Assembly: GCF_000442515.1 (NCBI RefSeq)
Contig: NZ_AQPH01000020.1
Span: forward strand, 1 to 51,472
Source of the DNA: Magnetospirillum fulvum MGU-K5
GTDB lineage: Bacteria; Pseudomonadota; Alphaproteobacteria; Rhodospirillales; Magnetospirillaceae
DNA length: 51,472 nucleotides
Direction: 5' to 3'
Made by a program: the position numbers and the translations under genes. Numbering within the stretch: position 1 is the first letter of the stretch; each line of letters begins with the position of its first letter. Positions 4,888 through 34,514 of this stretch are shown here, in pieces. The notes under the pieces are model-generated. The model was not told the DNA's origin. It saw only the letters and a list, made by a program, of their open reading frames with translations, and did no database searches.

Positions 4888-4941
4888 TTACAAAAACATC
4901 ATCCGCCCGCCATCCTGCGGTAACCCCGACAGAGGCATGAT
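4888..4941 (+). promoter_or_regulatory. promoter with 11-bp-periodic activator box, small-RNA copy 1
   Basis: The box runs 4888-4926. It holds four related 7-mers spaced 11 bp apart: ATTACAA, ATCATCC, GCCATCC and GTAACCC, starting at 4888, 4899, 4910 and 4920 (the third interval is one base shorter or longer depending on alignment). Nine bases later comes CATGAT (4936-4941), a candidate -10. No good -35 is present, as expected for an activator-dependent promoter. The layout resembles the Pho box of PhoB-type regulators, but the regulator is inferred. Near-identical boxes occur at 9298, 14198 and 34374. Confidence 0.55.
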
Positions 4942-4947
4942 GTTCTT

Positions 4948-5062
4948 GACCAGACAGGTAAGACCAACCGATTAACCGGCGAGCTTGAACTCCCCGCCCA
5001 GAGATCGGACCGATCTAAAGTCACAAGCCCCGCACGCCACACCCTCGTGCGGGGCTTTTAAT
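4948..5062 (+). ncRNA. putative small RNA copy 1 with Rho-independent terminator
   Basis: An intergenic unit of about 113 nt between the convergent apeR and LuxR genes. It is about as similar to the units at 9359 and 14259 as they are to each other. A hairpin is formed by GGCG (4978-4981) and CGCC (4995-4998) with the loop AGCTTGAACTCCC. A second hairpin follows (AGATCG/CGATCT around 5002-5017). The end is a strong terminator: an 11-bp stem 5026-5036/5046-5056 followed by TTTT. The CUCCCC loop can pair with Shine-Dalgarno sequences. No convincing reading frame is present. The start is inferred from the -10 position. Confidence 0.6.
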
Positions 5063-6298
5063 TTATGGAACGATGGTCCGGCAGGCGGGGCGGGTCCCGT
5101 TGTCGCCCGGTTCCGCCCGCGACAGGGTGTGCACCGGATTGCTCAGCAGCACCCGGACCAGATCGGCCTGACGTCCCACCCGGGTTTTTTCGAACGCCCG
5201 CTTCATGTGGGTGCGCACGGTGTTCATGCTGATCCCGAGATCGTGGGAAATTTCATCGGGCGAAAGCCCCTCGGCCAGCATCCCGGCGACATCGGCCTCG
5301 GCTCCGGTCATTCCGTACATCTCGCTCAGCGCACCGCGCTGGATTTCGTAATGGACATCGGGATCGCTGGCCAGCAGGACGACCAGCGGCGTTCCCGGCG
5401 CATCGCCCCCCAGATCGATCCGCACCGCACTGACGACAATCGCCAGCGGCGACCGCTCGGAAGCGCGGGAAACAGCAAGGGTGCGGCTGGGCTGGGAATC
5501 TCCCCCCAAAGCGGCGCGATAGCATTCCTCCACCGCCGCCAGAATCCGGGACCGGTTGTGCGACGACGCGGCATGGACCCGGCCGTTCTGAATCGAGATT
5601 TCACCGTCGCGGGCCAGCGAGCGCATCTTTTCATTATGATAGACGACGGTACCGTTGCCTTCGAGCAGGGCCAGCGCCGGGGCAACCCGATCGAGCGCGG
5701 CAAAAGCGGCGTGGCGTTGGCGCTTTTCGGCCTCCGCCAGGGCGAACAGACCCAAAGCCCGGTTGAGATGGGAAGCGACGATCCTCATCCGCGCCAGATC
5801 GGTGGCGTCGAACGGAGGCTGGGTCGGCGAGCGCATCACCCCCACCATCCCGAGGCAGGTGGAATCCACCGCCACAATCGTCCCGAGACTGCACTGAATA
5901 CCGTGCTGCGCCAGGGCATCGTAGGAACGGCGCGCCGCCTTATGGCATTCCAGCGCGATCAGCGGCGCGATCTGGTCGGTCTTACGCTGGGGGAGGACAG
6001 GGAAATTCGACGATGACCACTCGCCCGAGGCCGAGGCCATCGTTTCGAGCCAAAGCTGTTGCGCATCGCGGTCGATGGTGCTGGACAGGGTGCGTTTGAT
6101 TTGTCGGCTGTTAGGCTCGGCCAGCAGAATGAGCCGCATCGGAGCATCGAACATCTCGCCCAGCCGATCCAGAACGCTCATCCACCCGTCTGCGTCGGCC
6201 GCCGACCCGTAACACACGTCAATAAGATCAAGAATCCGCGTCATATCGGCAATCGTGATGCCGCCCTGGTCCATGGTGCCCCCGCCAGCATCACCCAA
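5063..6298 (-). CDS. LuxR-family transcriptional regulator
   Basis: A protein of up to 411 residues with a C-terminal LuxR-type helix-turn-helix: LTGAEADVAGMLAEGLSPDEI then SMNTVRTHMKRAFEKT at about residues 325-375. The N-terminal ~280 residues have no cofactor or phospho-acceptor motif that I can recognise; they look like a GAF/PAS-type sensory region. The longest start is ATG at 6298, but the ATG at 6274 has a better GGGGGC ribosome site. It is transcribed towards small-RNA copy 1 and starts opposite a GGDEF response regulator, so it may respond to a diffusible or metabolic signal. Ligand unknown. Confidence 0.75.
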   Translation of the reverse strand: MGDAGGGTMDQGGITIADMTRILDLIDVCYGSAADADGWMSVLDRLGEMFDAPMRLILLAEPNSRQIKRTLSSTIDRDAQQLWLETMASASGEWSSSNFPVLPQRKTDQIAPLIALECHKAARRSYDALAQHGIQCSLGTIVAVDSTCLGMVGVMRSPTQPPFDATDLARMRIVASHLNRALGLFALAEAEKRQRHAAFAALDRVAPALALLEGNGTVVYHNEKMRSLARDGEISIQNGRVHAASSHNRSRILAAVEECYRAALGGDSQPSRTLAVSRASERSPLAIVVSAVRIDLGGDAPGTPLVVLLASDPDVHYEIQRGALSEMYGMTGAEADVAGMLAEGLSPDEISHDLGISMNTVRTHMKRAFEKTRVGRQADLVRVLLSNPVHTLSRAEPGDNGTRPACRTIVP

Positions 6299-6653
6299 TT
6301 CCGTTCACCTCACCCGCCTGTCGCTCATTTTTCCTCCACGCCTCGTTTGGTGTTGGGCTAGGTACTCTCCCCCCCTCCATACGTAAATACGTAGAGACTA
6401 CGCAAATACACCACCTTTTCGGGTGAGCGTCAGACTTTCTTTATTTATCAAGAGCCTGCCACGGGTCTCGCCGCGATCACCAATGCGCGCATTCCTTTGC
6501 ATTATCATCTATTCAGGTGATGCCGACCGCAGTGCGATTTGTAAGACTGCGCTTTCGACCTGAACGCTCGCACAACACTCCGCCCGACGGGCAAGGAACA
6601 ACAAACGCCCTGCCGCCGATAAAGGTGGAAATTTGACGAACAGGGGGAGAGCC
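6299..6653. promoter_or_regulatory. divergent intergenic region with a repeated 11-mer
   Basis: This 355-bp region lies between the divergent LuxR and GGDEF genes and must hold both promoters. The striking part is TACGTAAATAC (6380-6390) repeated as TACGCAAATAC (6399-6409), a direct repeat with 19-bp offset and one mismatch. The first copy is also part of the inverted repeat TACGTA-AA-TACGTA (6380-6393). It lies about 80 bp upstream of the LuxR start, so it is a plausible operator for that regulator. I see no gene in the rest. Confidence 0.35.
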
Positions 6654-7571
6654 ATGACGATCAGATTTCTCATCGCCGACCGCGATCCGGCCTGCATTCA
6701 ACGGCTCACCTCGATCCTGACGGACAGCACCGACACCTATTGTAAGATCGTGTCGCGAACCTCTGCCGCCGAGGCGTCGGCTGCGCTCAAATCGAAATGT
6801 TACGATGTGGCCCTTCTCGCCTACGATTTCGTGACGGACCCTCGCTTTGAACTGTTCGACTTCCACGGACCGACCACCAACCGGACCGCGATCATCATTC
6901 TCAGTGATTCCCCCCGTAAGGATTGGGCCTTTGCCGCCCTGCAAAAGGGCGCGCAGGATTTCATCGTCAAGGACACGATCGATTCGTTTGGTCTGATCAA
7001 GGCGGTCACCTATGCGATGTTCCTCAAATGCAAGGAATTCGAGTTGCGCGTTTCGGCGCTGCGCGACCCCTTGACCGGGATTGGCAATCGCAATCTCTTT
7101 GACGAACAGGCGGCAACCCTGCTCAATCAAGCCAAGCGCGGCCAGGAAAAGGCCGCCATCCTGTTCATGGATGTCGATGGGCTAAAAGCGGTCAACGATA
7201 CCCACGGCCACGCCCTGGGCGATCGGTTGCTCAATCAGGTCGCGACGCGGATCGTCGGGCAGATGCGGGAAAGCGATGTCGTCGCCCGGGTCGGCGGCGA
7301 CGAGTTCGTTGCGATGCTGACGCATATCAACACCCCCAACAGCATCACCTTGATCGAGCACAAGCTCAATCATGCGGTGTCCCAGACGCCCTATCGGATC
7401 GACGGGATCGATATCCAAATCGGGATGAGTTGCGGAAGTGCGATCTACCCCGACGATTCCCAGGAGATTTCCGACCTGATCCAGATCGCCGACAAGCGAA
7501 TGTACGAGAAGAAAGCCAGGAAGAAAGCGACCCCCTCTCCCTCCCCCGTGCTGTACTGGTCGAAATCCTGA
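6654..7571 (+). CDS. response regulator with GGDEF domain, diguanylate cyclase
   Basis: A 305-residue protein. The first ~120 residues form a receiver domain with acidic residues in IADRDP, candidate phospho-acceptor Asp58 and Lys106. A GGDEF domain follows (residues about 138-290) with an intact GGDEF motif at 214-218 and an inhibitory-site RESD at 205-208, exactly five residues before it. It should make cyclic di-GMP from two GTP and be feedback-inhibited. The start ATG at 6654 is chosen because GGGGGAGA precedes it; an in-frame ATG at 6633 has no such site. The neighbouring HD-GYP protein at 9500-10552 supplies the opposite activity. Confidence 0.88.
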   Translation: MTIRFLIADRDPACIQRLTSILTDSTDTYCKIVSRTSAAEASAALKSKCYDVALLAYDFVTDPRFELFDFHGPTTNRTAIIILSDSPRKDWAFAALQKGAQDFIVKDTIDSFGLIKAVTYAMFLKCKEFELRVSALRDPLTGIGNRNLFDEQAATLLNQAKRGQEKAAILFMDVDGLKAVNDTHGHALGDRLLNQVATRIVGQMRESDVVARVGGDEFVAMLTHINTPNSITLIEHKLNHAVSQTPYRIDGIDIQIGMSCGSAIYPDDSQEISDLIQIADKRMYEKKARKKATPSPSPVLYWSKS

Positions 7572-7760
7572 CCGGACCGCCCTCGCCTCTCTACCGACGA
7601 GGCCAGCACGGACCTCCTCCTTAATCTTTTGCTCCGATTCCCTAAACCATTAGATTATTCTGGTCTGCGATAACGGCTCGCATGAAGGGAATGTGCGCTC
7701 TCGCTCCCGTCTTGTGGCGAACCACACGGCAGGGACGTCGCCTCTCCCCAGAAAGGGAAA

Positions 7761-8375
7761 GTGGTGGAATTACCTCCACGCTTCATTGTTGCTCTGGTTG
7801 ATGGCGATCCCGCCACGCGGGACCGGATCGCCGAAACACTGTCCGTGAACGGGTACGACGTTCGCGCCTATGTCGACGGCACCAGCTTCCTTGAGTCGCA
7901 CGATGCGCTGGCGATCGGCTGCATCCTGATCGACCTCGATCTCGGCACCGATTTCCTCCCCAAGATCCGCAAGCGGGGCTATGACGCTCCGATCATCGTG
8001 ATGTCCGCCGAAGGCAATATCCCGCTGGTGGTCCGCGCCATCCAGTCGGGCGCGCAATCCTGGCTGGGCAAGCCGGTCGATTGCCACCAGTTGCTGTCGG
8101 TGGCAAAGCAGGCGTGTCACCTTCATCGGTTCTATCGCCAGCGCTTTATCCCGGCCAAGGATGCGATCGCGAAATACCAGCGCTTGACCCGGCGCGAAAG
8201 CGACGTCTTCTGGCTGCTGACCAAGGGGATGTCGAGCAAGGAAATCGCCGGTCAGCTTGGGATCAGCGTCCGCACCGTCGAGACCCACCGCGCCCATGTC
8301 TTCGAAAAGTTCGAGGCGACCTCGCTGAAGACCCTGATCGACCTGACCGTTCCGCTCGCCGCCCTCCACGCCTGA
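7761..8375 (+). CDS. FixJ/NarL-type response regulator
   Basis: A 204-residue two-domain regulator. The receiver domain covers residues 8-120 with Asp58 in CILIDLDLG as phospho-acceptor, the MSAEG switch region and GKPVD carrying the conserved Lys. The C-terminal HTH is LuxR/FixJ type: LTRRESDVFWLLTKGMSSKEIA, then GISVRTVETHRAHVFEK. It starts at GTG 7761 (a second GTG follows at once) after AAGGGAAA. No kinase is adjacent in the same operon; the sensor may be one of the kinases further along this region. Confidence 0.85.
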   Translation: MVELPPRFIVALVDGDPATRDRIAETLSVNGYDVRAYVDGTSFLESHDALAIGCILIDLDLGTDFLPKIRKRGYDAPIIVMSAEGNIPLVVRAIQSGAQSWLGKPVDCHQLLSVAKQACHLHRFYRQRFIPAKDAIAKYQRLTRRESDVFWLLTKGMSSKEIAGQLGISVRTVETHRAHVFEKFEATSLKTLIDLTVPLAALHA

Positions 8376-8455
8376 GCCGGAACGGTGCCGGGGACTTTCG
8401 CCTGCCGCCGCATCATGGCATCGTCAACAACCGCGACCAACCCAGAGGGGACGCC

Positions 8456-9241
8456 ATGCCGAGCGAAGCCGATGCGATCTTGCTGACCGAGCGGAGCGGA
8501 GCTGTCGCGACGCTGACCCTGAACCGCCCCGCCGCCCGCAACGCCCTGTCGATGGCGCTGATGCGCGAATTGGAGGCGGGGCTGGCCCGGCTGGCGGAGG
8601 ACACCACGATCAAGGCGGTAGTGCTGGCGGCGAACGGCCCCGCGTTCTGTTCCGGCCACGATCTCAAGGAAATGCGCGGACTGGACGGACGCGACGCGGT
8701 GGCGGCGGTGTTCGATCAATGCGTCCGGGTCATGACCGCGATTGTGCGCCAGCCCCAGCCGGTGATCGCCCGGGTTCACGCGATGGCGACCGCCGCCGGG
8801 TGCCAGTTGGTGGCGTCGTGCGATCTGGCCTTTGCCGCCAGCGACGCCCGCTTCGCGACGCCCGGCGTCAATATCGGGCTGTTCTGCTCGACACCGATGG
8901 TCGCGCTCAGTCGGGCGATCGGGCGCAAGGCGGCAATGGAGATGTTGTTGACCGGCCATCCGATCGACGCCGCCACCGCCGAGCGCTGGGGGCTGATCAA
9001 TCGCGCCGTTCCCGCCGAGGATTTGAACGCCGTCACCGCCGAGATTGCGGCGCTGATCGCCGCGAAATCGGCTTATACGGTCAAGACCGGCAAACAAGCC
9101 TTTTACCGTCAGGCCGAGATGGGGTTGGACGACGCCTACGCCTATGCCGCGCGGGTGATGACCGAGAATATGCTGGCCGCTGATGCCGCCGAGGGAATCG
9201 ACGCCTTCCTGACCAAACGTCCCCCGGTGTGGCGGGACTGA
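8456..9241 (+). CDS. enoyl-CoA hydratase/isomerase family protein (ECHDC3-like), catalytic Glu residues not seen
   Basis: A 261-residue crotonase-fold protein. It has the CoA-binding NRPAARNALS and the oxyanion-hole regions SGHDLKEM and MATAAGCQL. At the position of the first catalytic Glu of true hydratases it has Gln (GCQLVA), and the second region reads PGVNIGLFCSTP with no Glu, so ordinary hydration is doubtful. This is the pattern of the ECHDC3-like subgroup. The ATG at 8456 is preceded by GAGGGGAC. It follows the FixJ-type regulator by 80 bp on the same strand and is followed by small-RNA copy 2. Confidence 0.8.
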   Translation: MPSEADAILLTERSGAVATLTLNRPAARNALSMALMRELEAGLARLAEDTTIKAVVLAANGPAFCSGHDLKEMRGLDGRDAVAAVFDQCVRVMTAIVRQPQPVIARVHAMATAAGCQLVASCDLAFAASDARFATPGVNIGLFCSTPMVALSRAIGRKAAMEMLLTGHPIDAATAERWGLINRAVPAEDLNAVTAEIAALIAAKSAYTVKTGKQAFYRQAEMGLDDAYAYAARVMTENMLAADAAEGIDAFLTKRPPVWRD

Positions 9242-9297
9242 TCGTCCCAGCCCGCGCCGAAGCCAGAAGCGATCCCGTCGCCCTGCACTTTCGGATC

Positions 9298-9352
9298 ATT
9301 ACAAAAATATCATCCGCCCGCCATCCTGCCGTAACCCCGGCCCAGGCATGAT
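9298..9352 (+). promoter_or_regulatory. promoter with 11-bp-periodic activator box, small-RNA copy 2
   Basis: The box runs 9298-9337 and differs from copy 1 at only about two positions. The candidate -10 CATGAT is at 9347-9352, nine bases after the box, exactly as in copy 1. The sequences between box and -10 are less conserved, which supports selection on the box and on the spacing. Confidence 0.55.
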
Positions 9353-9358
9353 GTTTAC

Positions 9359-9475
9359 GACTCGACAGGCAGTACCCCCCGATGGACAGGCGAGCTTGAA
9401 CTCCCCGCTTCGAGATCGGACCCGACACAGTCAAAAGCCCCGCACGCCACACCCTCGTGCGGGGCTTTTCCTTTT
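9359..9475 (+). ncRNA. putative small RNA copy 2 with Rho-independent terminator
   Basis: About 112 nt between the hydratase-like gene and the convergent HD-GYP gene. The central hairpin is kept by different bases: AGGCG (9388-9392) pairs with CGCTT (9406-9410), with the same 13-nt loop AGCTTGAACTCCC as copy 1. The terminator stem (9436-9446/9456-9466) is identical to copy 1 and is followed by TTTT. The strand is set by the T-run and by the upstream box. Confidence 0.6.
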
Positions 9476-9499
9476 CACGGACGGCACGGGAAACGATGG

Positions 9500-10552
9500 T
9501 CAGGCGCTGCCATAGCGTTCGGCCACCGCCAGAATCTGTTCCAGCGAGACCAGAAACGCATCGACGCAGGCCGGATCGAAATGGCTTCCCCGGTTGCTGC
9601 GCAGGAAGTCGAGCGCCTTGTCCAGCGGCCAGGCGGGCTTGTACGGCCGCACACTGGTCAGGGCGTCGAAGACGTCGGCAACGGCGGTAATCCGCCCGGC
9701 CAGGGGAATATCCAGTCCCGATACGCGTTTGGGATAGCCGGTTCCGTCCCACTTTTCATGATGACTGAGCGCGATCGCCGCCGCCATCTGGAGCATGGGA
9801 GATTGATTGTTGCGCAGGATCTGCCAGCCGATCTCGGCATGGGTGGTCATGATCTCGCGCTCTTCCGGGGTCAGAGCCCCGGGCTTCAACAGCACATGGT
9901 CGGGAATGCCGATCTTGCCGATATCGTGCATCGGCGCGGCGGTGAAGATCAGATCGACCTCTTCGGACGGCAGCCCCATCCGCGTGGCAATGATCTGACA
10001 ATAATTGGACATCCGCAGCAGATGCGCCCCGGTTTCGTTGTCGCGAAATTCGGCGGCGCGCGACAGCACCAAAATCGATTCACGCTCGCGCGCGACGATG
10101 GCATGGGTTGCCTTGCGCACCTCCTCGGCCAGCAAAACCGCCTGGGTTTTGGTTTGCTTGTGGTGGCGGCTGAGGCTGAGCAGGTTGCGCACCCGGGTCA
10201 GGAACTCGATCTTATCGACGGGTTTGCGCAGGAAGTCGGTCGCGCCCAACTGAAGGGCGCGATAGCGGACCTCCATCGTGTCCGACGTCGTCACCATGAT
10301 CACCGGAATGTCGGTGCGGCTGGGATTGGTCAAAAAGGCTTCGATGAACTGCAACCCGTTGATCTTCGGCATCACGTAATCGACGATGACCAGATCGACA
10401 TCGTTCTGAAGACACCAACTCAGTGCGACCTGGGGATCTTTGAACGGAACCGCCGCGTCTTCCGCGATCATGCTGGAGACAAGCTGGGTGAGGTGCTTCA
10501 GAACGCTTTCGCTATCGTCGACAATCGCAATCTTTACCGAGCTGTCCGCCAT
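9500..10552 (-). CDS. response regulator with HD-GYP domain, cyclic di-GMP phosphodiesterase
   Basis: A 350-residue protein, RpfG/PdeHG-like in layout. The receiver domain is at residues 6-125 with Asp58 in VIVDYVMP and Lys110. The HD-GYP domain follows: His209-Asp210 in MHDIGKIG, SHHEKWDGTGYP with the GYP motif, and AVADVFDALTS. It should hydrolyse cyclic di-GMP, opposing the cyclase at 6654. The start is placed at ATG 10552 because the receiver begins right after it; upstream in-frame sequence to 10654 is unlike protein. It is divergent from the response regulator at 10769. Confidence 0.85.
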   Translation of the reverse strand: MADSSVKIAIVDDSESVLKHLTQLVSSMIAEDAAVPFKDPQVALSWCLQNDVDLVIVDYVMPKINGLQFIEAFLTNPSRTDIPVIMVTTSDTMEVRYRALQLGATDFLRKPVDKIEFLTRVRNLLSLSRHHKQTKTQAVLLAEEVRKATHAIVARERESILVLSRAAEFRDNETGAHLLRMSNYCQIIATRMGLPSEEVDLIFTAAPMHDIGKIGIPDHVLLKPGALTPEEREIMTTHAEIGWQILRNNQSPMLQMAAAIALSHHEKWDGTGYPKRVSGLDIPLAGRITAVADVFDALTSVRPYKPAWPLDKALDFLRSNRGSHFDPACVDAFLVSLEQILAVAERYGSA

Positions 10553-10768
10553 TTTGAACGCCCTGCCATCTGTCTGAAACACCGTGACAGAGCCGTCAGG
10601 CGGTGCATCATGGTCTCTGGGGAAATGATCGCAGACGATGATGGTCGGAACCAAGGTCTATCTGCGCCATTGCCTCCGCGATTTGCAGATCACCCTCTGT
10701 TTTTTGCGGGTATCGAGACACATCTTTCGGACGAGAATGATCGACCTCTCTGGCGCAGGATTCCGACG

Positions 10769-11461
10769 ATGACCGACACGCACCCCCGCCTTCCCCTGTC
10801 CGCAAACGATTTGGTTCTGGTTGCCGATGACGAAACGTTTTCGCGGTTCATGACGATCGAACGGTTCGGCCAGATGGGGAAGCCGCAGATTTTATCGGCA
10901 CGCGATGGTCACGAAGCCCTGGAGGCGCTGAATGGCAGCCGGGCGACGGAAATCCGGGTGGTGGTGCTTGATTTCAACATGCCGGGCGCCAACGGAATCG
11001 AAGTGTTGAAAGACATCCGCAGCGGCAAACTGGCGGTTCCCCATGACGTGATCGTGATGATGATCACCGGCATCGATATTCTGGGCATTGCCACCGCCGC
11101 GATGGTGCTCGACGTTGACCTGTTCCTCAATAAACCGACCGCGACCGCCGATCTGCGCCGTCATCTGATCGACCTGCTGGGCAGCGAGCGCGATTGTGCG
11201 CCCCCTGCGCATTATGCCGGGCTCGACGTGGACTGGCTGATTTCGGGCCAAGTGATCGACACCACCCTCAGCGGCGGGGAAGACATCCCCCTGGATGCCT
11301 TGAGCGAGGGCATGGTGATCGCCAGCAATCTGCTCGATCCGCATGGTGGATTGCTGGTGGCAGCCGGAACCCGGGTGACCCCCCGGCTGCGGCGTCTGCT
11401 GCGCGGGCTGGCCGCCGCCGGTCTGCCGTTCGAGGGATTAAAGGTGATCCGCCCCATCTGA
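10769..11461 (+). CDS. response regulator with a C-terminal uncharacterised domain
   Basis: A 230-residue protein. The receiver domain has VADDE at 18-22, Asp68 in VVLDFNMPG and Lys in LNKP. The C-terminal ~65 residues (LSEGMVIASNLLDPHGGLLVAAGTRVTPRLRRLL) resemble the small module often found beside HD-GYP domains, here without any HD-GYP. The ATG at 10769 has AGGA upstream. It is convergent with 11474-12172, whose product has the same two-part architecture. Output function unknown; it may act through protein contact. Confidence 0.75.
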   Translation: MTDTHPRLPLSANDLVLVADDETFSRFMTIERFGQMGKPQILSARDGHEALEALNGSRATEIRVVVLDFNMPGANGIEVLKDIRSGKLAVPHDVIVMMITGIDILGIATAAMVLDVDLFLNKPTATADLRRHLIDLLGSERDCAPPAHYAGLDVDWLISGQVIDTTLSGGEDIPLDALSEGMVIASNLLDPHGGLLVAAGTRVTPRLRRLLRGLAAAGLPFEGLKVIRPI

Positions 11462-11473
11462 GCCGCGGCAGGA

Positions 11474-12172
11474 TCAGCCGCGCCCAGGACCTACGGGCAC
11501 TTCGGCCGGAACCTCTTCAACGCCGATTTCTTCCAGCCGCTCGATCAGATGCCGGGTCAATTGAGTGCCCGCCTGCAACAAGGTATTCCCGTCGGCGGCG
11601 ATCAGATCGGCGGCAAGCTTGGTTCCGGGCCGAACCCGCCGAATCGGCGTCATCGGGATCAAGCGCGGCGCGGCGCGGGACGGTGCCGCCGGGTCCATCC
11701 CCTCGGCCGCCGCCAGCATCCCGGCAATATCGAGCGCGGCGTAATACTCGACCGGCTTGATCACCCGAGGCGAATCCGGCGACAGAAAGTGGAACAGCCG
11801 CGTCGCCAGCTTTTCCTTGCCGAACGGCTTCGACATAAAGGAATCGGCATCGAGCGCCAAGGCAACCGCCGTCAGGGCGAAGCTGGTCGAAACGGTGGCG
11901 ACAATGAAATAGGTATCGTGCGGCAACGGCAACCGGCCTTGCCGCAAATCACCCAAGAGTTTGATCCCGGTTTCATCGGGCATGTAATGATCGGAGATCA
12001 CCAGACTGAGGGCGGGATCGGCCTGCATCGCCGCCCGGGCCTCGGCCCCGGACCCGGCAAACACGACATGAAGCGCGCCCAGCGATTCGAACAGCTTGGC
12101 GATCACCTTGCACGAAAACTGTTCGTCATCGACGACCAGAATGCGGAACGACGGGGTAGCTCCTCCAGTCAT
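11474..12172 (-). CDS. response regulator, paralogue of the convergent neighbour
   Basis: A 232-residue protein. The receiver has VVDDE at 13-17, Asp61 in VISDHYMP and Lys in MSKPFG. The C-terminal region PGTKLAADLIAADGNTLLQ followed by AGTQLTRHLIERL matches the C-terminal domain of the protein encoded at 10769-11461. The two genes are tail to tail, 12 bp apart, so they probably arose by inverted duplication. The ATG at 12172 is chosen because AAGGA lies 10 bases before it; an upstream in-frame start at 12199 is possible. Output unknown. Confidence 0.75.
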   Translation of the reverse strand: MTGGATPSFRILVVDDEQFSCKVIAKLFESLGALHVVFAGSGAEARAAMQADPALSLVISDHYMPDETGIKLLGDLRQGRLPLPHDTYFIVATVSTSFALTAVALALDADSFMSKPFGKEKLATRLFHFLSPDSPRVIKPVEYYAALDIAGMLAAAEGMDPAAPSRAAPRLIPMTPIRRVRPGTKLAADLIAADGNTLLQAGTQLTRHLIERLEEIGVEEVPAEVPVGPGRG

Positions 12173-12369
12173 CGGCGGGTCATCCTTGCGAACCGACAAG
12201 AACTATCGCCCGCGGCATGCGGCGAAACGTCTTCGGCGCTTAAATCAAACCAGGATAAGACAGCGTTTGATTATGGCACTGGATGCAGGCGAAAGTCGCG
12301 CCAAAACAACAGGCTTCCACGCGGTGGGGAGAGGACTTTCCGCCCTCCCCCCCGCGTTCATCACCGCAA

Positions 12370-14028: not shown

Positions 14029-14197
14029 GAAGCACTCCCTAGCCCGGAAATGACAAAAAGATCACAGATTGTAGCCCAAGGCGTGAAGCGGACATAGGAC
14101 CGGGTTGTCATTCTCCGCGCCTTCCCTTTTCAAGCGAGACACCCCCTTCTGCTTCGCGGAGCAAGCGGGAGATCGGGCAATCATTTGTTTTGAACCA

Positions 14198-14252
14198 TTA
14201 CAAAAATATCATCCCCCCGCCATCCTGCGGTAACCCGGATTGAGGCATTGTG
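14198..14252 (+). promoter_or_regulatory. promoter with 11-bp-periodic activator box, small-RNA copy 3
   Basis: The box runs 14198-14237, nearly identical to copies 1 and 2. The candidate -10 is CATTGT (14247-14252), again nine bases after the box. It is about 170 bp upstream of the oppositely oriented acyl-CoA synthetase start, so the box could in principle also affect that gene. Confidence 0.5.
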
Positions 14253-14258
14253 TTCTTG

Positions 14259-14371
14259 TCCAGACAGGTATGACGACCCGAACGACCGGCGGACTTGAAC
14301 TCCCCGCCTCAAGATCGGATCAATCGTAAAGTCCAAAGCCCCGCACGCCCACCCTCGTGCGGGGCTTTTAC
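14259..14371 (+). ncRNA. putative small RNA copy 3 with Rho-independent terminator
   Basis: About 113 nt between two genes on the other strand, so it cannot be a 3' tail of a neighbour. The hairpin GGCGG (14289-14293) with CCGCC (14305-14309) encloses ACTTGAACTCC. The terminator stem is 14338-14348/14357-14367 with TTTT. Conservation with copies 1 and 2 is clearest in CAGACAGGTA, CTTGAACTCCCCGC, AGATCGGA and the terminator. Confidence 0.6.
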
Positions 14372-19800: not shown

Positions 19801-19801
19801 G

Positions 19802-26002: not shown

Positions 26003-26015
26003 CAGTTTAAACTGC
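26002..26015. repeat. 14-bp perfect palindrome at the transposase-remnant boundary
   Basis: GCAGTTTAAACTGC begins at the last base of the DUF2971 gene and reads into the IS remnant. It may be a scar of the rearrangement that truncated the IS. Confidence 0.4.
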
Positions 26016-26280: not shown

Positions 26281-26304
26281 CCTTCCTTCGCGCGGCGAAC
26301 GGGT

Positions 26305-27030: not shown

Positions 27031-27037
27031 GGCGTCC

Positions 27038-27175
27038 TCACTGATCGCGGCCGGATGGGGTGGGCATCACTTCGTCGAGGTAATCGGCACCATGGTCGTA
27101 GACGGGGCAGGCATGCGCCAGCCGGTGCATTTCCACTCTGACGACGTCATGAGTCTTTCTGACGAGTTTTTCCAT
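27038..27175 (-). CDS. small protein of unknown function between EamA and AlaX genes
   Basis: A 45-residue ORF in the gap between two likely co-transcribed genes. The product begins MEKLVRKTHDVVRVEMHRL and is rich in His and charged residues. GGAG lies 8 bases before the ATG. I do not recognise a family. Support comes from the tight spacing and ribosome site only. Confidence 0.45.
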   Translation of the reverse strand: MEKLVRKTHDVVRVEMHRLAHACPVYDHGADYLDEVMPTPSGRDQ

Positions 27176-27192
27176 GACAGGCGCTCCAGACG

Positions 27193-28110
27193 TTATTGGC
27201 CTCGTTTGGCGAAATAGAGCCCGACCAGACAAATCGTGATGCCGACGATCTGGCGGACGGTCAGGGTCTCGTGGAACAGGATCCAGGCATAGATCGCCGC
27301 GACCACCGGCTGCATCAGCACGAGCACCGATGACAGCGCGACCGGCACCGGGCGCAGGCATTGCGCCAGCATCCCCTGCCCGACCACATGCGACAGCACC
27401 GCGAGCCCGACCAGCGGCGCCAGATCCTCCAGCCCGGTCGGCACCAGCCGCTGTTCCAGCAGCAGCGCCAGCGGCACCAGGGTAGACAGGCAGCCGAGGC
27501 TGCTGAGATACAGGATCCGCCCTGGGCCGAAGCGGCGGCGCAGTCGGCTAACCAGCAGCAGATACAGGCCGTAGAACACCGCCGTCAGCAGCGCCAGCCC
27601 GTCCCCCAGCGCCGAGGCTAGCGAGGCCTGCAGCGAGGCCGACAACAGCAGAGTGACCCCGCACAGGGTCAGCGCCAGCCCCACCAGGAACGAACGGCGA
27701 ATCCGCTCGCGATAGAGCAGCACCGACAGCGGCACGACGACGAACGGCACCAGATTTGCCAGCAGGTTGGCATTGGCCACCGTGGTGTAATGGAACGAGA
27801 TGTTCCAGAAGGTCAGGTCCAGTCCGAGCAGCGCCCCCGCCGCCCACAGCACCACCAGATCGCGCCGCTCCAGCCGGGGGACGGCCCGGGGCGCCCGTCT
27901 CCGTTCCAGCGCGTCCCAGCCATAGACCAGCGGCAGGGCCAGCAGGATCCGCCACGCCCCGGTGGCGATCGGATCGAGCGGGCTGAGCTTGACGAAGATC
28001 CCGCCGGTGGCGAGGAAACACACCGCCAGGATCACCCCCGCCACCGCGATCACGTCGGGAGAGGCCTGCCCTATCACGGCGGCGGACGACGAACTGTCGG
28101 AGGGACTCAA
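27193..28110 (-). CDS. EamA/DMT-family transporter
   Basis: About 305 residues with ten predicted transmembrane helices in two EamA repeats. The first repeat begins VAGVILAVCFLATGGIFVKL and the second GDGLALLTAVFYGLYLLL. Family members export amino acids, metabolites or drugs. The TTG at 28110 is chosen since GGAAGGAG lies seven bases before it; an ATG at 28167 is in frame but has no ribosome site. It is divergent from a MocR-type regulator, a common arrangement in which the regulator controls the exporter. Confidence 0.8.
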   Translation of the reverse strand: MSPSDSSSSAAVIGQASPDVIAVAGVILAVCFLATGGIFVKLSPLDPIATGAWRILLALPLVYGWDALERRRAPRAVPRLERRDLVVLWAAGALLGLDLTFWNISFHYTTVANANLLANLVPFVVVPLSVLLYRERIRRSFLVGLALTLCGVTLLLSASLQASLASALGDGLALLTAVFYGLYLLLVSRLRRRFGPGRILYLSSLGCLSTLVPLALLLEQRLVPTGLEDLAPLVGLAVLSHVVGQGMLAQCLRPVPVALSSVLVLMQPVVAAIYAWILFHETLTVRQIVGITICLVGLYFAKRGQ

Positions 28111-28225
28111 ATCATCGCTCCTTCCTGGGGGGAAACGCGCGCCGGAAAACCGGCCGACGACATCCATCGATTGATTCGCGCGTTGATTTGACTATCAATC
28201 AGCCATATTGTCCGAATCAATGAAA

Positions 28226-28246
28226 ACATTGTGTGGCAAACAATGT
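28226..28246. promoter_or_regulatory. inverted repeat at the MocR regulator start
   Basis: ACATTGT (28226-28232) and ACAATGT (28240-28246) form a perfect 7-bp inverted repeat with a 7-bp spacer. It covers both possible start codons of the regulator and lies in the divergent EamA/MocR promoter region, so it may be an autoregulatory site. Confidence 0.4.
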
Positions 28247-29610
28247 GGGTTCCCGACCTGAGAAACCGCCATCCGGTCCGCTATCTCGCCATCGTCGAAG
28301 CCCTGGCAGAGGCCATCGCGCGGGGCGCTTTGCGGCCGGGCGACCGCCTGCCGACCCATCGTGAACTGGCGTGGCGGCTGGGGGTCAATGTCAGCACGGT
28401 GACGCGCGCCTATGTCGAAGCGACCCGGCGCCATCTGATTTCCGGCGAGGTCGGCCGGGGCACCTTCGTACTGTCGGAAAGCCGCGAGGCGATGCTGTTC
28501 GGGCTCGACAGCCCGGCAGCCGCCCTGGCGGCGAGAACGATCGACCTGTCGGTCAATATTCCGGCCAGCCCCGGCGACGCCGTCGACGCCGCCGAGATCG
28601 AAGCCACCCTGGCCGATCTGGCGGCGCGGCAGCGTCTGGGCGGGACGCTGGGCCATCCCTCCGCCGCCCTGATCGCCCAGGCCCGGATCGCCGGTGCCAC
28701 ATGGCTCGCAGCGCGCGGCCTCGACATCCGGCCGGGCGACGTGATCCCCACCGCCGGCGCGCAGCAGGCCCTGCTCGCGGTGCTGCTGGCTTTATGCCGA
28801 CCGGGCGACCCGGTGCTGGTCGAGGACCTGACCTTTCCTGGAATCAAGGCGCTGGCCCGCCAGCTCGCCCTGCCGCTGCACGGCGTGGCGACCGATGGAG
28901 AGGGTATCCTGCCCGACGCGCTCGACCGCGCCGCCCGCGCCACCTCGGCCCGGGTGGTGGTGGTGGTGCCGGCGTTGCAGAACCCGACCGGGGCGACGAT
29001 GGGCGCGGCCCGCCAGCAGGCGGTGGCCGAAATCGCCCGCCAGCGCGGCCTCCAGGTGATCGAGGACGATGTCTACGGGATGCTGGCCGAGACCCCGCCA
29101 CTGGCCCGGCTTCTGCCCGAGACCTGCACCATAGTGACCAGCCTGTCGAAATGCGTCGCCGGCGGCCTGCGCTTCGGCGTGATCGCCGGTACCAGCGCGG
29201 CGGTGCGGGCGGTGGCGGCCGAACCGCAGACCACGCTGTGGCCGCTGGCGCCGCTGATGATCGAGATTGCCTGCCGCTGGCTGGAGGACGGCACCGCGCA
29301 GCGGCGGGTCCGCTGGCAACGCGAGGAGATCGCCGCCCGCTACCGGCTGGCCCGCCGCGCCCTGCCCGGCCGCCCCGAAGGCGATCCCCGCCCCAGCCCG
29401 CATGTTTGGCTGACCCTGCCGACCGAGGACCCCGACCCGGCCGCCCTCTGCCGCCGGGCCGGACTGGAGGTGGTGCCGGCGGCAACCTTCGCGGTGACGC
29501 GCGAGCCGCCGCAGCGGATCCGGGTCAGCCTGACCGCCGCCGCCAGCCGCGCCGACCTGAGCCGAGCCTTGGACCGCCTCCACCGCCTCGGAGCGGCGTG
29601 GTCACGGTAA
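28243..29610 (+). CDS. MocR/PdxR-type GntR-family regulator with aminotransferase domain
   Basis: About 455 residues. The N-terminal winged helix (residues ~8-75) has RPGDRLPTHRELAWRLGVN and STVTRAYVEA. The rest is a fold-type I aminotransferase domain with LQNPTGATMG and the PLP-binding Lys in SLSKCVAGGLRFG. Such regulators sense PLP or amino-acid derivatives. A GTG at 28231 could add four residues; neither start has a clear ribosome site. It is divergent from the EamA operon and likely controls it. Confidence 0.85.
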   Translation: MWVPDLRNRHPVRYLAIVEALAEAIARGALRPGDRLPTHRELAWRLGVNVSTVTRAYVEATRRHLISGEVGRGTFVLSESREAMLFGLDSPAAALAARTIDLSVNIPASPGDAVDAAEIEATLADLAARQRLGGTLGHPSAALIAQARIAGATWLAARGLDIRPGDVIPTAGAQQALLAVLLALCRPGDPVLVEDLTFPGIKALARQLALPLHGVATDGEGILPDALDRAARATSARVVVVVPALQNPTGATMGAARQQAVAEIARQRGLQVIEDDVYGMLAETPPLARLLPETCTIVTSLSKCVAGGLRFGVIAGTSAAVRAVAAEPQTTLWPLAPLMIEIACRWLEDGTAQRRVRWQREEIAARYRLARRALPGRPEGDPRPSPHVWLTLPTEDPDPAALCRRAGLEVVPAATFAVTREPPQRIRVSLTAAASRADLSRALDRLHRLGAAWSR

Positions 29611-29912
29611 CGGCCCGGGGAACAAAGGAAAAATACGGGCGTGCCTGCGCCGGACGAATGGATCGTGGTGTGATGAATAGGAACCGCCGCCTCCGGAACA
29701 ATCCGCCGTAACAGCGGAGCGGGCACAGCCAATTGATCTAAATTAACTCTTTGAAGCTTCAGAACTCGTGTCGTCTCCTCGCCGAGACGCCAAATTCCAA
29801 AAAGCTGAATTCGCCAGGAACCGACCGTTACGGTCGCGATCCGGCCTGCTTTCTTCCCCAAAGATGTCTTTGTTCCGGCTTGCTAAATGCGATGGCCGGA
29901 TTGTAGCCTCCG
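29611..29912. other. intergenic stretch, nothing recognised
   Basis: About 300 bp between the MocR gene and the Mur ligase gene. It should hold the promoter of the ligase. I see no gene, repeat or stable structure. Confidence 0.3.
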
Positions 29913-31313
29913 ATGATGGAACATCATCGACGCTATTTTTTCTGCGGCATCGGCGGCAGCGGGATGCTGCCGCTGGCCCTGATCGTCCAGCAACGAGGCA
30001 CCCGTGTCGCCGGATCGGACCGGTCGCTCGATCAGGGGCGCAGCCCCGCCAAGTTCGACTTTCTGCGCGCGCACGGCATTGACCTGTTTCCCCAGGATGG
30101 CAGCGGGATCGTCGACGGGGAAACCGTGCTGGTTACCTCGGCCGCGGTCGAGGAAACCGTTCCCGACGTCCAGGCCGCCCGTCGGGCTGGCGCGACGCTG
30201 ACGACGCGGGCCGAACTGCTGTCCGACCTGTTCAACGCCGCCCCCCGCTCGGTCGGGATCGCCGGGACCAGCGGCAAATCGACCACCACCGGGATGGTCG
30301 GCTGGCTGTTGCGTCAGGCCGGGCAGGACCCCACCATCGTCAATGGCGCGGTGATGCGTAATTTCGTCACCGCCGACACTCCGTTTGCCAGTTCGCTGGT
30401 GGGTGGCGACGATCTGTTCGTCGCCGAGATCGACGAAAGCGACGGCTCGATTGCCCGCTATCGCCCCGATGTCGCGGTGCTGAACAATGTCGCGCTCGAC
30501 CACAAATCAATGGAGGAACTGCGCCGCCTGTTCCGCGACTTCATCGCCAAGGCCCGGATCGCGGTGCTGAACCTCGACAATGACGAGACCGCCGCTTTGG
30601 CAACGACGATCCCGCCCGAACGGCGTCTGACCTATTCGCTGTCCGATCCCGCCGCCGATCTGTTCGCCACCGACATCGTTCCCGCCCGCGACGGGATTGC
30701 CTTTACCGTCCGCGACGCGGCCGGGGGAGCTTGGCCGGTTCGTCTGCTGGTGCCCGGACGCCACAATGTCGCCAATGCCCTGGCGGCACTGGCGGCAGCG
30801 TTGGCCTGCGGCATCGCTCTTGACCGGGCGGCGGCGGCCCTGTCCGGCTTTGCCGGAATTCGCCGCAGGCTTGAGGTGGTGGGGAGTGCGGGTGGCGTCA
30901 CCGTCATCGACGATTTCGCCCACAATCCCGATAAGATCACCGCGACCCTCGCCACCCTCCACGATTTCCCCGGACGGCTGCTGATCTTGTTCCAGCCCCA
31001 TGGGTTTGGGCCGTTAAAGCTGATGCGAGAGGGCTTTGCCGGTTGCTTCGCCGATCATCTTCGGCCCGACGACGTGCTGGTGATGCCCGATCCGGTCTAT
31101 TTCGGCGGCACCGCCGACCGTGCCGTCACCAGTGCCGATATCGTTGGCGATATCGTGGCGCGGGGCCGCGACGCCCGCTTTTTCCCCGAACGGGCCGCCT
31201 GTGGCGAGGCGCTGCTGACGCTGGCGCGTCGCGGCGACCGCATCGTTGTGATGGGAGCGCGTGATGATACCCTGTCGAGCTTTGCCGAAGACCTGCTGCG
31301 GCGGCTGGAATAG
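29913..31313 (+). CDS. stand-alone Mur ligase, MurC-like
   Basis: A 466-residue ATP-dependent ligase of the MurC/Mpl group. The N-terminal domain begins [17 protein letters not shown]. The P-loop is [14 protein letters not shown], the middle domain has [20 protein letters not shown], and [11 protein letters not shown] and [13 protein letters not shown] lie near the end. It is not in a dcw cluster, and DDFAHNP differs from the DDYGHHP of ordinary MurC, so it is probably a paralogue with another substrate, perhaps peptidoglycan recycling. The start at 29913 could be shortened by one Met. Confidence 0.75.
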
Positions 31314-31322
31314 AGCCGAAGA

Positions 31323-32027
31323 TTAATCGCAGGCCCCGTCGCGGCCCAGCCGGATCTGGGCGGCACGGGCGGCGATCAGTCCGGCGCGGCGGCTGACGGC
31401 GGCGGAGGGGCGCGCCGCCGAGCGGTCGAGCGGGGCGGGCAGCACGGCGGTGAGCAACGCCGCCTCGCGCGGGGTCAGCAATGCGGCGGGCTTGCCGAAA
31501 AAGCGCAGTGACGCCGCCTCGGCTCCATACAAGCCCGGCCCGAACTCGGCGATGTTGAGATAGACCTCGAGAATCCGCCGCTTCGGCCACAGCCCTTCCA
31601 GATAGAGGGTCAGATAGGCCTCGGCCCCCTTGCGGACAAAGGTGCGGCCCGGCCACAAAAAGACGTTCTTCGCCGTCTGCATCGAGATGGTGCTGGCCCC
31701 CAGCACCTTGCCGCCGTCTTCATAGCGGTCGATCGCATTGTCGATCGCGTCCCAGTCAAAGCCCCAATGAGTGCAGAATTTGGCGTCTTCCGAGGCGATC
31801 ACGGCGCGGCGCAGGTGGGGCGAAATCTGATCGAGCGAACGCCAGGTCTTGTCGAGGCCATAGCCCTCTACGACGCGCAGCAGCATCAGCGGCGTCACCG
31901 GCGGCGGCACGATCCGAAACAGCAGGGCCAGCGCGAGGGGCAGGCCGATCAGAAGGCCGAGAGCACCCACGACAAGTCGCCGCCGGTTGCGCTGCCACCA
32001 CGGCCCGGGATGGAGCGTTAACGACAT
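31323..32027 (-). CDS. mtgA: monofunctional peptidoglycan glycosyltransferase MtgA
   Basis: A 234-residue GT51 enzyme without a transpeptidase domain. One transmembrane helix is at residues ~18-40. The catalytic Glu80 is in IASEDAKFCTHWGFDW, and later GT51 motifs GASTISMQTAKN and RKGAEAYLTLYLE are present. It polymerises lipid II into glycan strands. The ATG at 32027 follows AGGATGGGG. It is divergent from a lytic transglycosylase-like gene and convergent with the Mur ligase, so three cell-wall genes are grouped here. Confidence 0.9.
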   Translation of the reverse strand: MSLTLHPGPWWQRNRRRLVVGALGLLIGLPLALALLFRIVPPPVTPLMLLRVVEGYGLDKTWRSLDQISPHLRRAVIASEDAKFCTHWGFDWDAIDNAIDRYEDGGKVLGASTISMQTAKNVFLWPGRTFVRKGAEAYLTLYLEGLWPKRRILEVYLNIAEFGPGLYGAEAASLRFFGKPAALLTPREAALLTAVLPAPLDRSAARPSAAVSRRAGLIAARAAQIRLGRDGACD

Positions 32028-32090
32028 AACCCCATCCTGAGCACCCGTGAAGCCTCCCCCGATTGAGCGATTTGTGCGACCATAGCATTG

Positions 32091-33008
32091 ATGCCGAACT
32101 CGCCGCGACGTCCTGGCGCTTCTTCGCCGCCGCTTTCTCCGGCCCGGCCGGTGAGTCCTCCGCCTCGCGTCGCGGCGGAACCCAAAGCCCGTCCCCGTCG
32201 CCGCCCGCCCCGCCGCAAGAAACGACCCCATCGTCTCCGCCTCTGGCGCGACCGGCTGGTCCGGGTCTGGCGGGGGATCAACCGTGTGCCGCCGCTGATT
32301 CTGACCGCTGTGTTGCTGACGGTACTGGCGAACGTGATTATCGGAATCAACATCGCCCACTGGGTGATCCGCAAGCCGACCGAATTGTTGCTGCCGGTCA
32401 GCGATCATTTCGTCAAAAGCCCCGAAGAAACCTGGGAGAGCTATGATGATCTGTTCCGTCGTTTTTCCACCGCCGCGATCTCGCCCGAAATGCTGGCGGC
32501 GCTGGCTCAGGTCGAAAGTGCGGGCAACCCGGCGGCACATACCTATTGGCGCTGGGATGTCGAGGCCCCCGATCTGTTCGGCATCTACCGCCCCGCCTCC
32601 AGCTCGGTCGGGATGTATCAGATGACCGAACCGGCCTATGCCGAGGCCGAACGGTTCTGCATCCGCGATCACCGCGTCATGACCGCCGGGACCGGGGCTG
32701 AGTCCTGCCGCCCGGCGGGAGGCTATTCCCGTGTCCTGCCCGCCCATGCCGTCGAACTGACGGCGATTTACCTCGACCGCGCCGTTGCCCGCGTGCTGGG
32801 CGACCGCCCGGGGCGCAGCGCCACGCCCCAGCAGAAGCAGGACACCGCCGCGTTGGTCCATCTGTGCGGCCCGACGGTGGCGAAACGCTTTGCCCAGGGC
32901 GGATTCCGCCTGACGCCCGGCGAGACTTGCGGCGACCACGATCCCGCCGATTATCTCGCCCAGGTCAACGCCCTCGCCCGCCGCTTCAAAACCCTGGCCG
33001 CGAAGTGA
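32091..33008 (+). CDS. membrane-anchored SLT-like lytic transglycosylase
   Basis: A 305-residue protein. The first ~65 residues are Pro/Arg-rich and cytoplasmic, followed by a transmembrane helix (LILTAVLLTVLANVIIGINI). The outer domain has SLT features: MLAALAQVESAGNP with candidate catalytic Glu142, and SVGMYQMTEPAYAEA. It would cleave peptidoglycan strands. The start is taken as ATG 32091; a TTG lies directly before it. The ribosome site is weak. Confidence 0.75.
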   Translation: MPNSPRRPGASSPPLSPARPVSPPPRVAAEPKARPRRRPPRRKKRPHRLRLWRDRLVRVWRGINRVPPLILTAVLLTVLANVIIGINIAHWVIRKPTELLLPVSDHFVKSPEETWESYDDLFRRFSTAAISPEMLAALAQVESAGNPAAHTYWRWDVEAPDLFGIYRPASSSVGMYQMTEPAYAEAERFCIRDHRVMTAGTGAESCRPAGGYSRVLPAHAVELTAIYLDRAVARVLGDRPGRSATPQQKQDTAALVHLCGPTVAKRFAQGGFRLTPGETCGDHDPADYLAQVNALARRFKTLAAK

Positions 33009-33151
33009 CGCCGGGTCGGTTGGATGGGGTTTGCCGCATTCGATCAAGAGACTTGAAATGCGTTCCGTCGCAATGTGAAGAAACAGAGAGGATGTGGGTG
33101 TAACCTCAGCATCTGCACTCTGCGGCGGGGTCTAAAAAACAGGGGGTATCT

Positions 33152-34045
33152 TTGCGGGCCGTTATCGTTTCGGGAGCCAATGCAGCGTATTATCCCTTGC
33201 TTGAGGGGCTGATCGGATCAATTCGCGCGACGGGGGGACAGGCGGTCGATCTTGCCGTTCTCGACCTCGGTTTGACCGGGCACCAAAGAAAAGACCTCAA
33301 ACGCGACGGAGTGCGGATCATCAATCCGAAATGGGATTGTGACCTCAATACCTTCGCGGCTCGCCCAGACAATTTCTTCAAGGCGATGACGTCCCGGCCA
33401 CGTCTGCCCGACTACCTTCCCGAATACGACGTGGTGATGTGGATCGATTCCGATTGCTGGGTTCAGGATTGGTCGGCCGTGTCCCTTTTTCTGGAAGCCG
33501 CAGAACGAACGGGATTTGCCGCCGTTCCGGAGATCGACCGCTCCTACACTCCGTTCATGGCCAACGGCGCGATACTCGAATGGGTGTTCTCGTGTTTTGG
33601 CCGCTGCTTCGGGCGCGAGGCGGCGATGCGCTTCGGGCATTACCCGCTGATCAATAGTGGCGTCTTTGCCGGGCGGGCCGACGCGCCGCATTGGCGGGCC
33701 TGGGCAGAGGCTCTGGATGCCGCCTTGGCCCAATTGCGCGAGCCTTACTTTTTCTCGGAGCAGACCGCGCTTAATTTTGCGATCCGGGCGCATGGGCTGC
33801 CCTTTGCCGCGCTGCCTGCGCGGTGCAATTGGGTTTGCGGACGCAGCCTGCCCGCCACGACCGATGGCGTGACGCTGTGCGACCCCAATCCTCCGCACGA
33901 CGGGTTGGGAATCGTCCACCTCACAGCGGGGACGAAGAACGGTCTGCGCCCGGTCGTGGGGATCGACGGGACGATGTATCACCGTTCGCTTCGCTGGAAC
34001 GGTCACGACCCGGCCCGTGTCGGGGCCGATATCCGCCGCGACTGA
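33152..34045 (+). CDS. putative GT-A fold glycosyltransferase
   Basis: A 297-residue protein. The N-terminus RAVIVSGANAAYYPLLEGLIGSI is a nucleotide-sugar-binding-like strand-helix. A DxD motif lies in VMWIDSDCWV at about residues 95-103, and YPLINSGVFAG near residue 165 fits GT8-like or related transferases. The start is a TTG with a good AGGGGG site five bases before it; no ATG is available near the conserved start. Acceptor and sugar are unknown. It appears monocistronic. Confidence 0.65.
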   Translation: MRAVIVSGANAAYYPLLEGLIGSIRATGGQAVDLAVLDLGLTGHQRKDLKRDGVRIINPKWDCDLNTFAARPDNFFKAMTSRPRLPDYLPEYDVVMWIDSDCWVQDWSAVSLFLEAAERTGFAAVPEIDRSYTPFMANGAILEWVFSCFGRCFGREAAMRFGHYPLINSGVFAGRADAPHWRAWAEALDAALAQLREPYFFSEQTALNFAIRAHGLPFAALPARCNWVCGRSLPATTDGVTLCDPNPPHDGLGIVHLTAGTKNGLRPVVGIDGTMYHRSLRWNGHDPARVGADIRRD

Positions 34046-34169
34046 GCTTAGGGGGGGGAGCGTTATTACCCCCTTCTTGTTGGGCATGGCAGCCAGAACG
34101 AGAAAGCATGAACGGCCCACCGGGCCGTGCTGTTATCTATATTGCAGCGCAGCATCGGAGGGCTGGGAA

Positions 34170-34304
34170 ATGCTCCGAGAATGGATTCAAAATATTTCAA
34201 CGTTTATGCTGAACCAGATAGTGTCCGATCGCGGTCACATCGGATCCTATATATGGAACCTGGCCCAGGAAGAGCTGGTGCGACGCTATCAGCTTGCAGC
34301 ATAG
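34170..34304 (+). CDS. small protein of unknown function
   Basis: A 44-residue ORF, MLREWIQNISTFMLNQI at the start and ending EELVRRYQLAA. It has a good GGAGGG site seven bases before the ATG, and lower GC than neighbours. It is isolated, about 70 bp before small-RNA unit 4. It could be a real small protein, an amphipathic peptide, or chance. Confidence 0.4.
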   Translation: MLREWIQNISTFMLNQIVSDRGHIGSYIWNLAQEELVRRYQLAA

Positions 34305-34373
34305 TTATACCCGGTCGGCTTTCCAGATGAGGCGGGGAAACGGAGTGCCGGTTCCTTGGGAAAGTTTTGAAAC

Positions 34374-34428
34374 ATTACAAAACAATCATCCACCCGCCAC
34401 GATGCGGTAACCCGACCGCCGGTAATCT
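34374..34428 (+). promoter_or_regulatory. promoter with 11-bp-periodic activator box, unit 4
   Basis: The box runs 34374-34413. Compared with copies 1-3 it keeps ATTACAAAA, ATCATCC, CCCGCCA and TGCGGTAACCC. The -10 candidate TAATCT (34423-34428) again starts nine bases after the box and is a better -10 than in the other copies. Confidence 0.5.
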
Positions 34429-34434
34429 CTCTTC

Positions 34435-34514
34435 ATAAGCTTCTCGAGCCTCAGCCACTCGAACTCCTCCAGTGAAAGCCCCTCCACCACTCCCCCTGGT
34501 GCGGGGGTTTTCCG
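34435..34514 (+). ncRNA. putative small RNA unit 4, diverged body, same loop motif
   Basis: About 80 nt. The body differs from copies 1-3, but CACT (34456-34459) and AGTG (34471-34474) form a hairpin with the loop CGAACTCCTCC, so GAACUCC is shown in the same way, and here it includes the full anti-Shine-Dalgarno CUCCUCC. The terminator stem (CCCC...CACCA with TGGTGCGGGG, 34478-34509) ends with TTTT. No coding sense. Confidence 0.5.

Follow-up and report, generated by a model that had tools for sequence, protein, structure and literature searches.

Four putative small RNA units in a Magnetospirillum contig

The window analyzed here is a stretch of 51,472 nt of Magnetospirillum fulvum MGU-K5, corresponding to contig C20 (NZ_AQPH01000020.1) of a 3.77 Mb draft genome (hereafter the own genome). 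It contains four short units, all on the plus strand, which an earlier note on this DNA had located and proposed as a family of co-regulated small RNAs (sRNAs); their positions were confirmed (Table 1) and such a family is well supported by the sequence, as the units have a common promoter and terminators and occur at unrelated sites in three species, and as their single-copy form keeps its pairing while the bases change. The upstream box, CATTACAAAANNATCATCC, was matched four times in the window with up to 3 mismatches (0.02 matches expected) and none of 100 shuffles reached this number. A -10 element, GCGGTAAC (GCCGTAAC in unit 2), is located at constant spacing from the box and each unit is closed by a Rho-independent terminator consisting of a strong hairpin and a U-run. 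Units 1 and 2 are each placed between convergent genes and unit 3 sits amid two minus-strand genes, encoding an AMP-binding enzyme and a hybrid histidine kinase.

Units 1-3 can be aligned without gaps over 182 nt, with identities to unit 1 of 69% (unit 2) and 79% (unit 3), and what unit 4 has in common with them is chiefly the promoter, the string GAACTCC and the terminator. The folding energies of the four units were all below the shuffle mean (z of -3.49, -2.16, -4.02, and -2.02 for units 1-4), with 1, 8, 0, and 5 of 200 shuffles, respectively, folding equally well or better. The GAACUCC-loop hairpin that had been attributed to all four units was recovered in unit 1 (4-bp stem, by the minimum-energy fold and by script) and, by script only, in unit 3 (5-bp stem). 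In unit 2 both the fold and the script preferred other pairings, and in unit 4 GAACUCCUCC lies outside a hairpin loop.

Table 1. Coordinates of the predicted features of units 1-4 in the window; the R1 sequence model is described with the copy numbers.
Feature	Position	Strand	Basis
Unit 1 promoter: box ATTACAAAAACATCATCC and GCGGTAACC; -10-like TAACCC at 4921-4926	4887..4925	+	Box count, pattern, R1 model
Unit 1 predicted RNA, putative start	4929..5060	+	Alignment, fold
Unit 1 hairpin GGCG-AGCUUGAACUCCC-CGCC	4978..4998	+	Minimum-energy fold and script
Unit 1 intrinsic terminator	5026..5059	+	Fold
Unit 2 promoter	9298..9336	+	Box count, pattern, R1 model
Unit 2 predicted RNA, putative start	9340..9470	+	Alignment, fold
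Unit 2 terminator	9433..9469	+	Fold
Unit 3 promoter	14197..14235	+	Box count, pattern, R1 model
Unit 3 predicted RNA, putative start	14239..14370	+	Alignment, fold
Unit 3 possible hairpin GGCGG-ACUUGAACUCC-CCGCC	14288..14308	+	Script only, not in minimum-energy fold
Unit 3 terminator	14335..14369	+	Fold
Unit 4 promoter	34374..34412	+	Box count, pattern, R1 model
Unit 4 predicted RNA, short class B; GAACUCCUCC outside hairpin loop	34415..34513	+	Fold and script
Unit 4 terminator with C-rich loop	34475..34513	+	Fold and script

A single-copy form beside a response regulator

In 34 of 55 genomes of the family a single-copy form of the unit, a putative RNA gene of about 220 nt, is located directly upstream of a gene encoding an OmpR-type response regulator (RR). 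The R1 model at E 0.01 matched 37 of these 55 genomes; the remaining three are G025, with the unit on another contig than the RR, G026, with the box before degP, and G024, with a partial match of 31 nt. In the 14 other genomes of the genus the distance from the beginning of the unit to the start codon of the RR gene (225 aa, same strand) is 307-320 nt. Among 30 RR loci that were fetched, the unit was directly upstream in 24, representing seven genera including Magnetospirillum, and ten more family genomes showed the same arrangement. The unit accompanied the RR in 25 of the 26 family genomes (own genome included) with an RR at least 82% identical, and was found in none of the 10 in which the RR was at most 65% identical or absent (not counting the partial match in G024).

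The RR of the own genome contains receiver and winged-helix domains and adjoins a HAMP/HisKA/HATPase kinase. The same RR-kinase neighborhood is present in G033 and, without the RNA, in G057 (the kinase was profile-checked in these two and in the own genome). The best NCBIfam model for the G009 RR was TIGR01387 (heavy-metal regulator), with 262.6 bits, under the cut-off of 279.2, and the HprR model gave 231.3, under its cut-off of 353. An Hsp20-family gene is located divergent to the RNA gene in G009 (L136:7522-8160).

The position of the RNA, on the same strand and directly before the RR gene with a terminator between them, could indicate a 5′ leader or attenuator of the RR mRNA, of which the dispersed copies would be by-products, and a leader-derived sRNA, UpsM, has been described in Rhodobacter (PMC8307010). 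We regard this explanation as quite improbable: the genes downstream of window units 1-3 are on the opposite strand, the G025 unit has other neighbors than the RR, and a TATGGT/TAAGGT-like element is present between the terminator and the RR gene in most rows of the alignment described below.

C-rich hairpins and kept pairing

Alignment A2 comprised the 24 fetched RR loci with a unit; G025, G026, G057, G045, G052, and G054, without one, were left out. The RR-adjacent RNA typically forms four or five hairpins with C-rich loops, namely GCGCUCC, GAACUCC, a C-run, UCCCCCC, and the terminator loop. By script, 2-6 C-rich hairpins were counted per sequence (at least 4 in 17 of the 24) vs shuffle means of 0.8-1.8. 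Of the 24 units, 20 contain GAACTCC and 21 contain GCGCTCC.

Pairing was evaluated by swapping hairpin halves between genomes, after dropping identical rows and those without the anchor motif, which left 21, 22, 20, and 22 distinct rows of 24 for hairpins H1 to H4. The cognate arms outpaired the median chimera in 17/20 rows for H3 and 20/22 for H4, evidencing that pairing is kept through sequence change in the single-copy form. Such pairing is clear only in these RR-adjacent relatives; the claim of the earlier note that copies 1 and 2 of the window keep the hairpin with different paired bases was not confirmed. Hairpins 3 and 4 were not predicted by RNAalifold on the MAFFT alignment, in which we think that these two are misaligned.

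Similar C-rich loops on several hairpins with variable stems would also be expected if the loops titrated an RNA-binding protein or Rho, as CsrB does with CsrA, instead of pairing with mRNA. This possibility is considered unlikely, since copies of the window type carry just one or two C-rich loops.

In class-B units (unit 4 and L037, L038, L040, and L041) a second conserved element was observed, consisting of common TGAGCCTCAGCCACTCA-like hairpins (TCGAGCCTCAGCCACTCGA in unit 4).

The promoter box and its occurrence before degP

From the box to the -10 region, 39 positions align without gaps in 47 promoter regions, and twelve of them are invariant, including the TTA within the box and the GTAA within the -10 region. 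An 11-bp spacing, the usual one for OmpR-type regulators, separates half-sites such as TTACC and TAATC. Three of the four window boxes start with CATTACAAAA, the first ten bases of the CusR/HprR box CATTACAAAATTGTAATG (PMC9302797), and that of unit 1 starts with AATTACAAAA, nine of ten. This half-site is shared with Escherichia coli HprR/CusR, and models of the HprR and CusR types rank among the best for the RR, below cut-off; the E. coli box is however palindromic (PMC9302797), whereas the second half reads ATCATC/TTAATC here. The shared box is probably the operator of the adjoining RR. PhoB, CtrA, RpoH, and ECF-type promoters were also weighed, by eye, and dropped given the RR linkage and the HprR/CusR half-site.

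The 47 sites were used to build a weight matrix, with which both strands of the loci fetched up to then were scanned (1.69 million positions, many loci overlapping); it gave 73 distinct matches above 2. Among the lowest 25 listed, those not belonging to units were the matches before degP in G026 and G057, one in G020, and five others (2.3-17.2). The box and -10 element precede degP in G026 (22.2), G057 (29.9), and G054 (30.1, a locus added after the scan), none of which contributed to the matrix. In these three outgroup genomes degP encodes a protease with trypsin-like and PDZ domains (Pfam) and is followed on the same strand by the RR gene, with no RNA before the latter. The location of the box before degP, next to the RR, suggests that the signal is probably envelope stress. 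We read the outgroup arrangement as a putative autoregulated degP-RR operon, the operator of which would now drive the RNA. Among 15 further RR loci, a strong full match was found in G054 and a moderate one, 16.5, in G045b.

Other occurrences of the promoter element were recorded. The moderate match of G045 (L241:2870) is followed by a small gene (2983-3366) whose start is signal-like, upstream of an RR paralog. The G020 match (21.6; L199:1858) lies before a gene which by eye resembles a histidine kinase. The five other matches (2.3-17.2) are located in L042, L198, L168, L170, and L172, loci fetched as weak pattern or model matches. Just 5′ of the box, 7 of the 47 promoter regions carry an exact TTTTGAA (e.g., window positions 14188-14194); these 7 all belong to dispersed copies in the multicopy species, and near forms occur elsewhere.

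Copy number and dispersal

The gap-free 39-base pattern with up to 3 mismatches detected 14 sites in the own genome and its reversed control none. Exact matches in named genomes were limited to six stretches, from M. fulvum DSM 13234 and M. molischianum DSM 120, in a search that may omit records near the own genome. A sequence model of the promoter, R1 (84 positions), revealed copies at unrelated sites in three species. At E <1e-6, R1 found 15 copies in the own genome, 13 in M. fulvum, 12 in M. molischianum, and one in each of 14 other genus genomes; the weakest of these matches had an E of 1.6e-7 and the next in any of the 17 genomes 0.017. R1 was trained on the 47 promoter regions, which include most of the copies later found. 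Outside the training set were the own sites C102 and the third C39 copy, five copies each in M. fulvum and M. molischianum, G011 and G014 in the genus, ten more family genomes, and G025.

The flanks of 39 sites were compared; of the 12 in M. molischianum, C1, located at a contig end, was left unscored. Positions C2a, C2b, C5a, C5b, C15, and the C39 cluster are common to the three multicopy species. The site of unit 1 is also held by one M. fulvum copy, and the downstream flank of unit 2 matches that of an M. molischianum copy. For units 3 and 4 and for C37, C42, and C102, none of the compared sites of M. fulvum and M. molischianum had a matching flank. The partly common positions suggest that a good part of the expansion is older than the species, with some gain or loss later. 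Tandem copies are present at the RR-adjacent locus, three in the own genome and in M. molischianum and two in M. fulvum. The dispersed copies differ in length, with the long forms at C2, C5b, and C39 at one extreme and the short forms of the window at the other.

Dispersal, together with the five own sites lacking a matching flank, might be attributed to mobile or DNA-level elements with no RNA product. Such an explanation is hardly credible considering that several copies are positionally conserved in three species, that pairing is kept through change, and that promoter and terminator are in order.

The class-B units L037 (C42:510) and L038 (C102:501) are near-identical and their upstream flanks are 87% alike over 283 nt, which suggests that they are part of a larger duplicated segment.

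Relation to known RNA families

At the gathering threshold, Rfam matches were limited to two tRNAs in the window, and 11 further loci gave none. The analogy with CuckooRNA (ar14, RF02344) drawn in the earlier note was weakly supported: the model gave weak positive scores (25.7 bits for unit 1, 34.2 for the G009 relative, and 49.2 as the best in 35 genomes), all of them under the gathering cut-off of 58.8. In 12 of the 17 genus genomes one of these units was the top ar14 match. A kinship with CuckooRNA is possible. That the units are true, diverged members of ar14 is nevertheless doubtful. None of the 35 genomes yielded a match over 58.8; the top match was located elsewhere in G003, G008, and G015, a non-unit locus of G020 scored 43, and genome-wide searches gave no match at E 1 in G002 and G009 (the G009 unit reached its 34.2 bits when scanned alone). 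Matches below cut-off were also found in 2 of 14 unrelated control genomes, and other C-rich families score too, as 6C RNA (RF01066) gave 39.4 on the G009 relative (gathering cut-off, 47) and was not listed for unit 1. CuckooRNA loops are C-rich and carry the motif CCUCCUCCC, which was found in 1 of 24 RR-adjacent units and in none of 39 units of the multicopy species; the shorter CUCCUCC occurred in 4/24 and 3/39, respectively, unit 4 included.

CcaF1 is a DUF1127 protein, and no DUF1127 (PF06568) gene was detected in the own draft genome at E 0.001. In Rhodobacter ccaF1 is the partner of the CcsR RNAs, a linkage that was not found in the own genome. CuckooRNA/ar14 and CcsR1-4 are, like the units with their weak ar14 scores, homologous sRNAs of alphaproteobacteria; CcsR1-4 are co-transcribed with ccaF1 and depend on alternative sigma factors, in contrast to the own promoter with an RR-type box of each copy described here (PMC8307010).

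Caulobacter SisA-D, of the alpha-R8 family, resemble the present units as four sibling sRNAs with UUUCCUCCCU; alpha-R8 is also mostly single copy beside a fixed neighbor gene, with the Caulobacter paralogs elsewhere. The promoters of the SisA-D siblings are unrelated (PMC12559287), unlike the one box common to all copies here.

By analogy, LhrC with LisRK of Listeria is the closest functional parallel. LhrC1-5 are sibling sRNAs that need one two-component system and are linked to cell-envelope stress; they carry repeated CUCCC loop motifs and LhrC binds at the Shine-Dalgarno sequence (PMC4132741). A common regulator-type box, putatively that of the RR, is likewise present on all copies of the units. 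Differences are the distant low-GC host, the number of copies (five), and the proven dependence on the regulator and binding to targets in Listeria (PMC4132741), both of which are predicted for the units. The lhrC genes are not known to be linked to the locus of the regulator.

Among the matches listed in a search of the open-licence literature there was no paper on these RNAs. The transcriptome of M. gryphiswaldense reports one Rfam-predicted sRNA, BjrC80, and a mapping of transcription start sites has been published for strain MSR-1 (PMC9549626).

Proposed regulation by a two-component system

We favor, with some confidence, an explanation in which an envelope-stress-type two-component system drives paralogous sRNAs whose C-rich loops mask Shine-Dalgarno sequences. 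The ancestral form would be the single-copy RNA gene upstream of the OmpR-type RR. Once phosphorylated, the RR would bind each copy at its box, in the -35 region, and activate transcription of the RNAs, the activating condition probably being envelope stress. The C-rich loops (CUCC, CCCC) would then pair with the Shine-Dalgarno regions of target mRNAs and block their translation; from the loop sequences, an anti-Shine-Dalgarno action is plausible. In the M. fulvum/M. molischianum lineage the gene would have been duplicated to 12-15 copies, some of which would have been shortened to the GAACUCC segment plus terminator.

Several observations weigh against this explanation. For 11 of the 24 RR-adjacent sequences, one or more of 60 shuffles contained no fewer C-rich hairpins than the sequence itself, which lowers our confidence. 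RR-proximal copies of the multicopy species carry two or three such hairpins, and that of the own genome, with two, is within these 11. The gain over chimeras was modest for H1 (14/21) and the near-invariant H2 showed it in 3/22; in addition, the covariation term given by RNAalifold on the MAFFT alignment was weak (-0.65), with double changes in 5 of 20 pairs. In the window the GAACUCC hairpin is absent in unit 4 and at best weak in units 2 and 3. As for the promoter, the box has no counterpart of the second half of the E. coli palindrome. No box was found near the degP homologs of the genus (30 loci, 16 of them the closest homolog; best score, -15.0) from 500 nt before to 60 nt after the match start, nor in about 3.5 kb (1.8 kb in G025) before 13 of the 15 further RR homologs, where G041 scored 5.1 and the rest below 0.

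A bolder variant would be that the two-component system controls translation through a multivalent C-loop RNA, the several interchangeable C-rich loops of which, on freely varying stems, would sequester like a sponge either G-rich RNA sites or a C-binding protein (the mirror image of CsrB), its dose being raised to about fifteen loci in one lineage; we find this improbable.

Our verdict is that of a putative new sRNA family whose functional kind is known, with an unusual copy number, repeated C-rich loops and a probable regulator. It adds a structured RNA family covered by no Rfam 15 family at threshold and ties it to a type of regulator and a probable operator. The simultaneous use of many sibling sRNAs by bacteria thereby becomes open to testing.

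Apart from the units, the window contains a direct repeat of 300 nt (41559-41858 and 42073-42372), the two copies of which are 78% identical and 514 nt apart.

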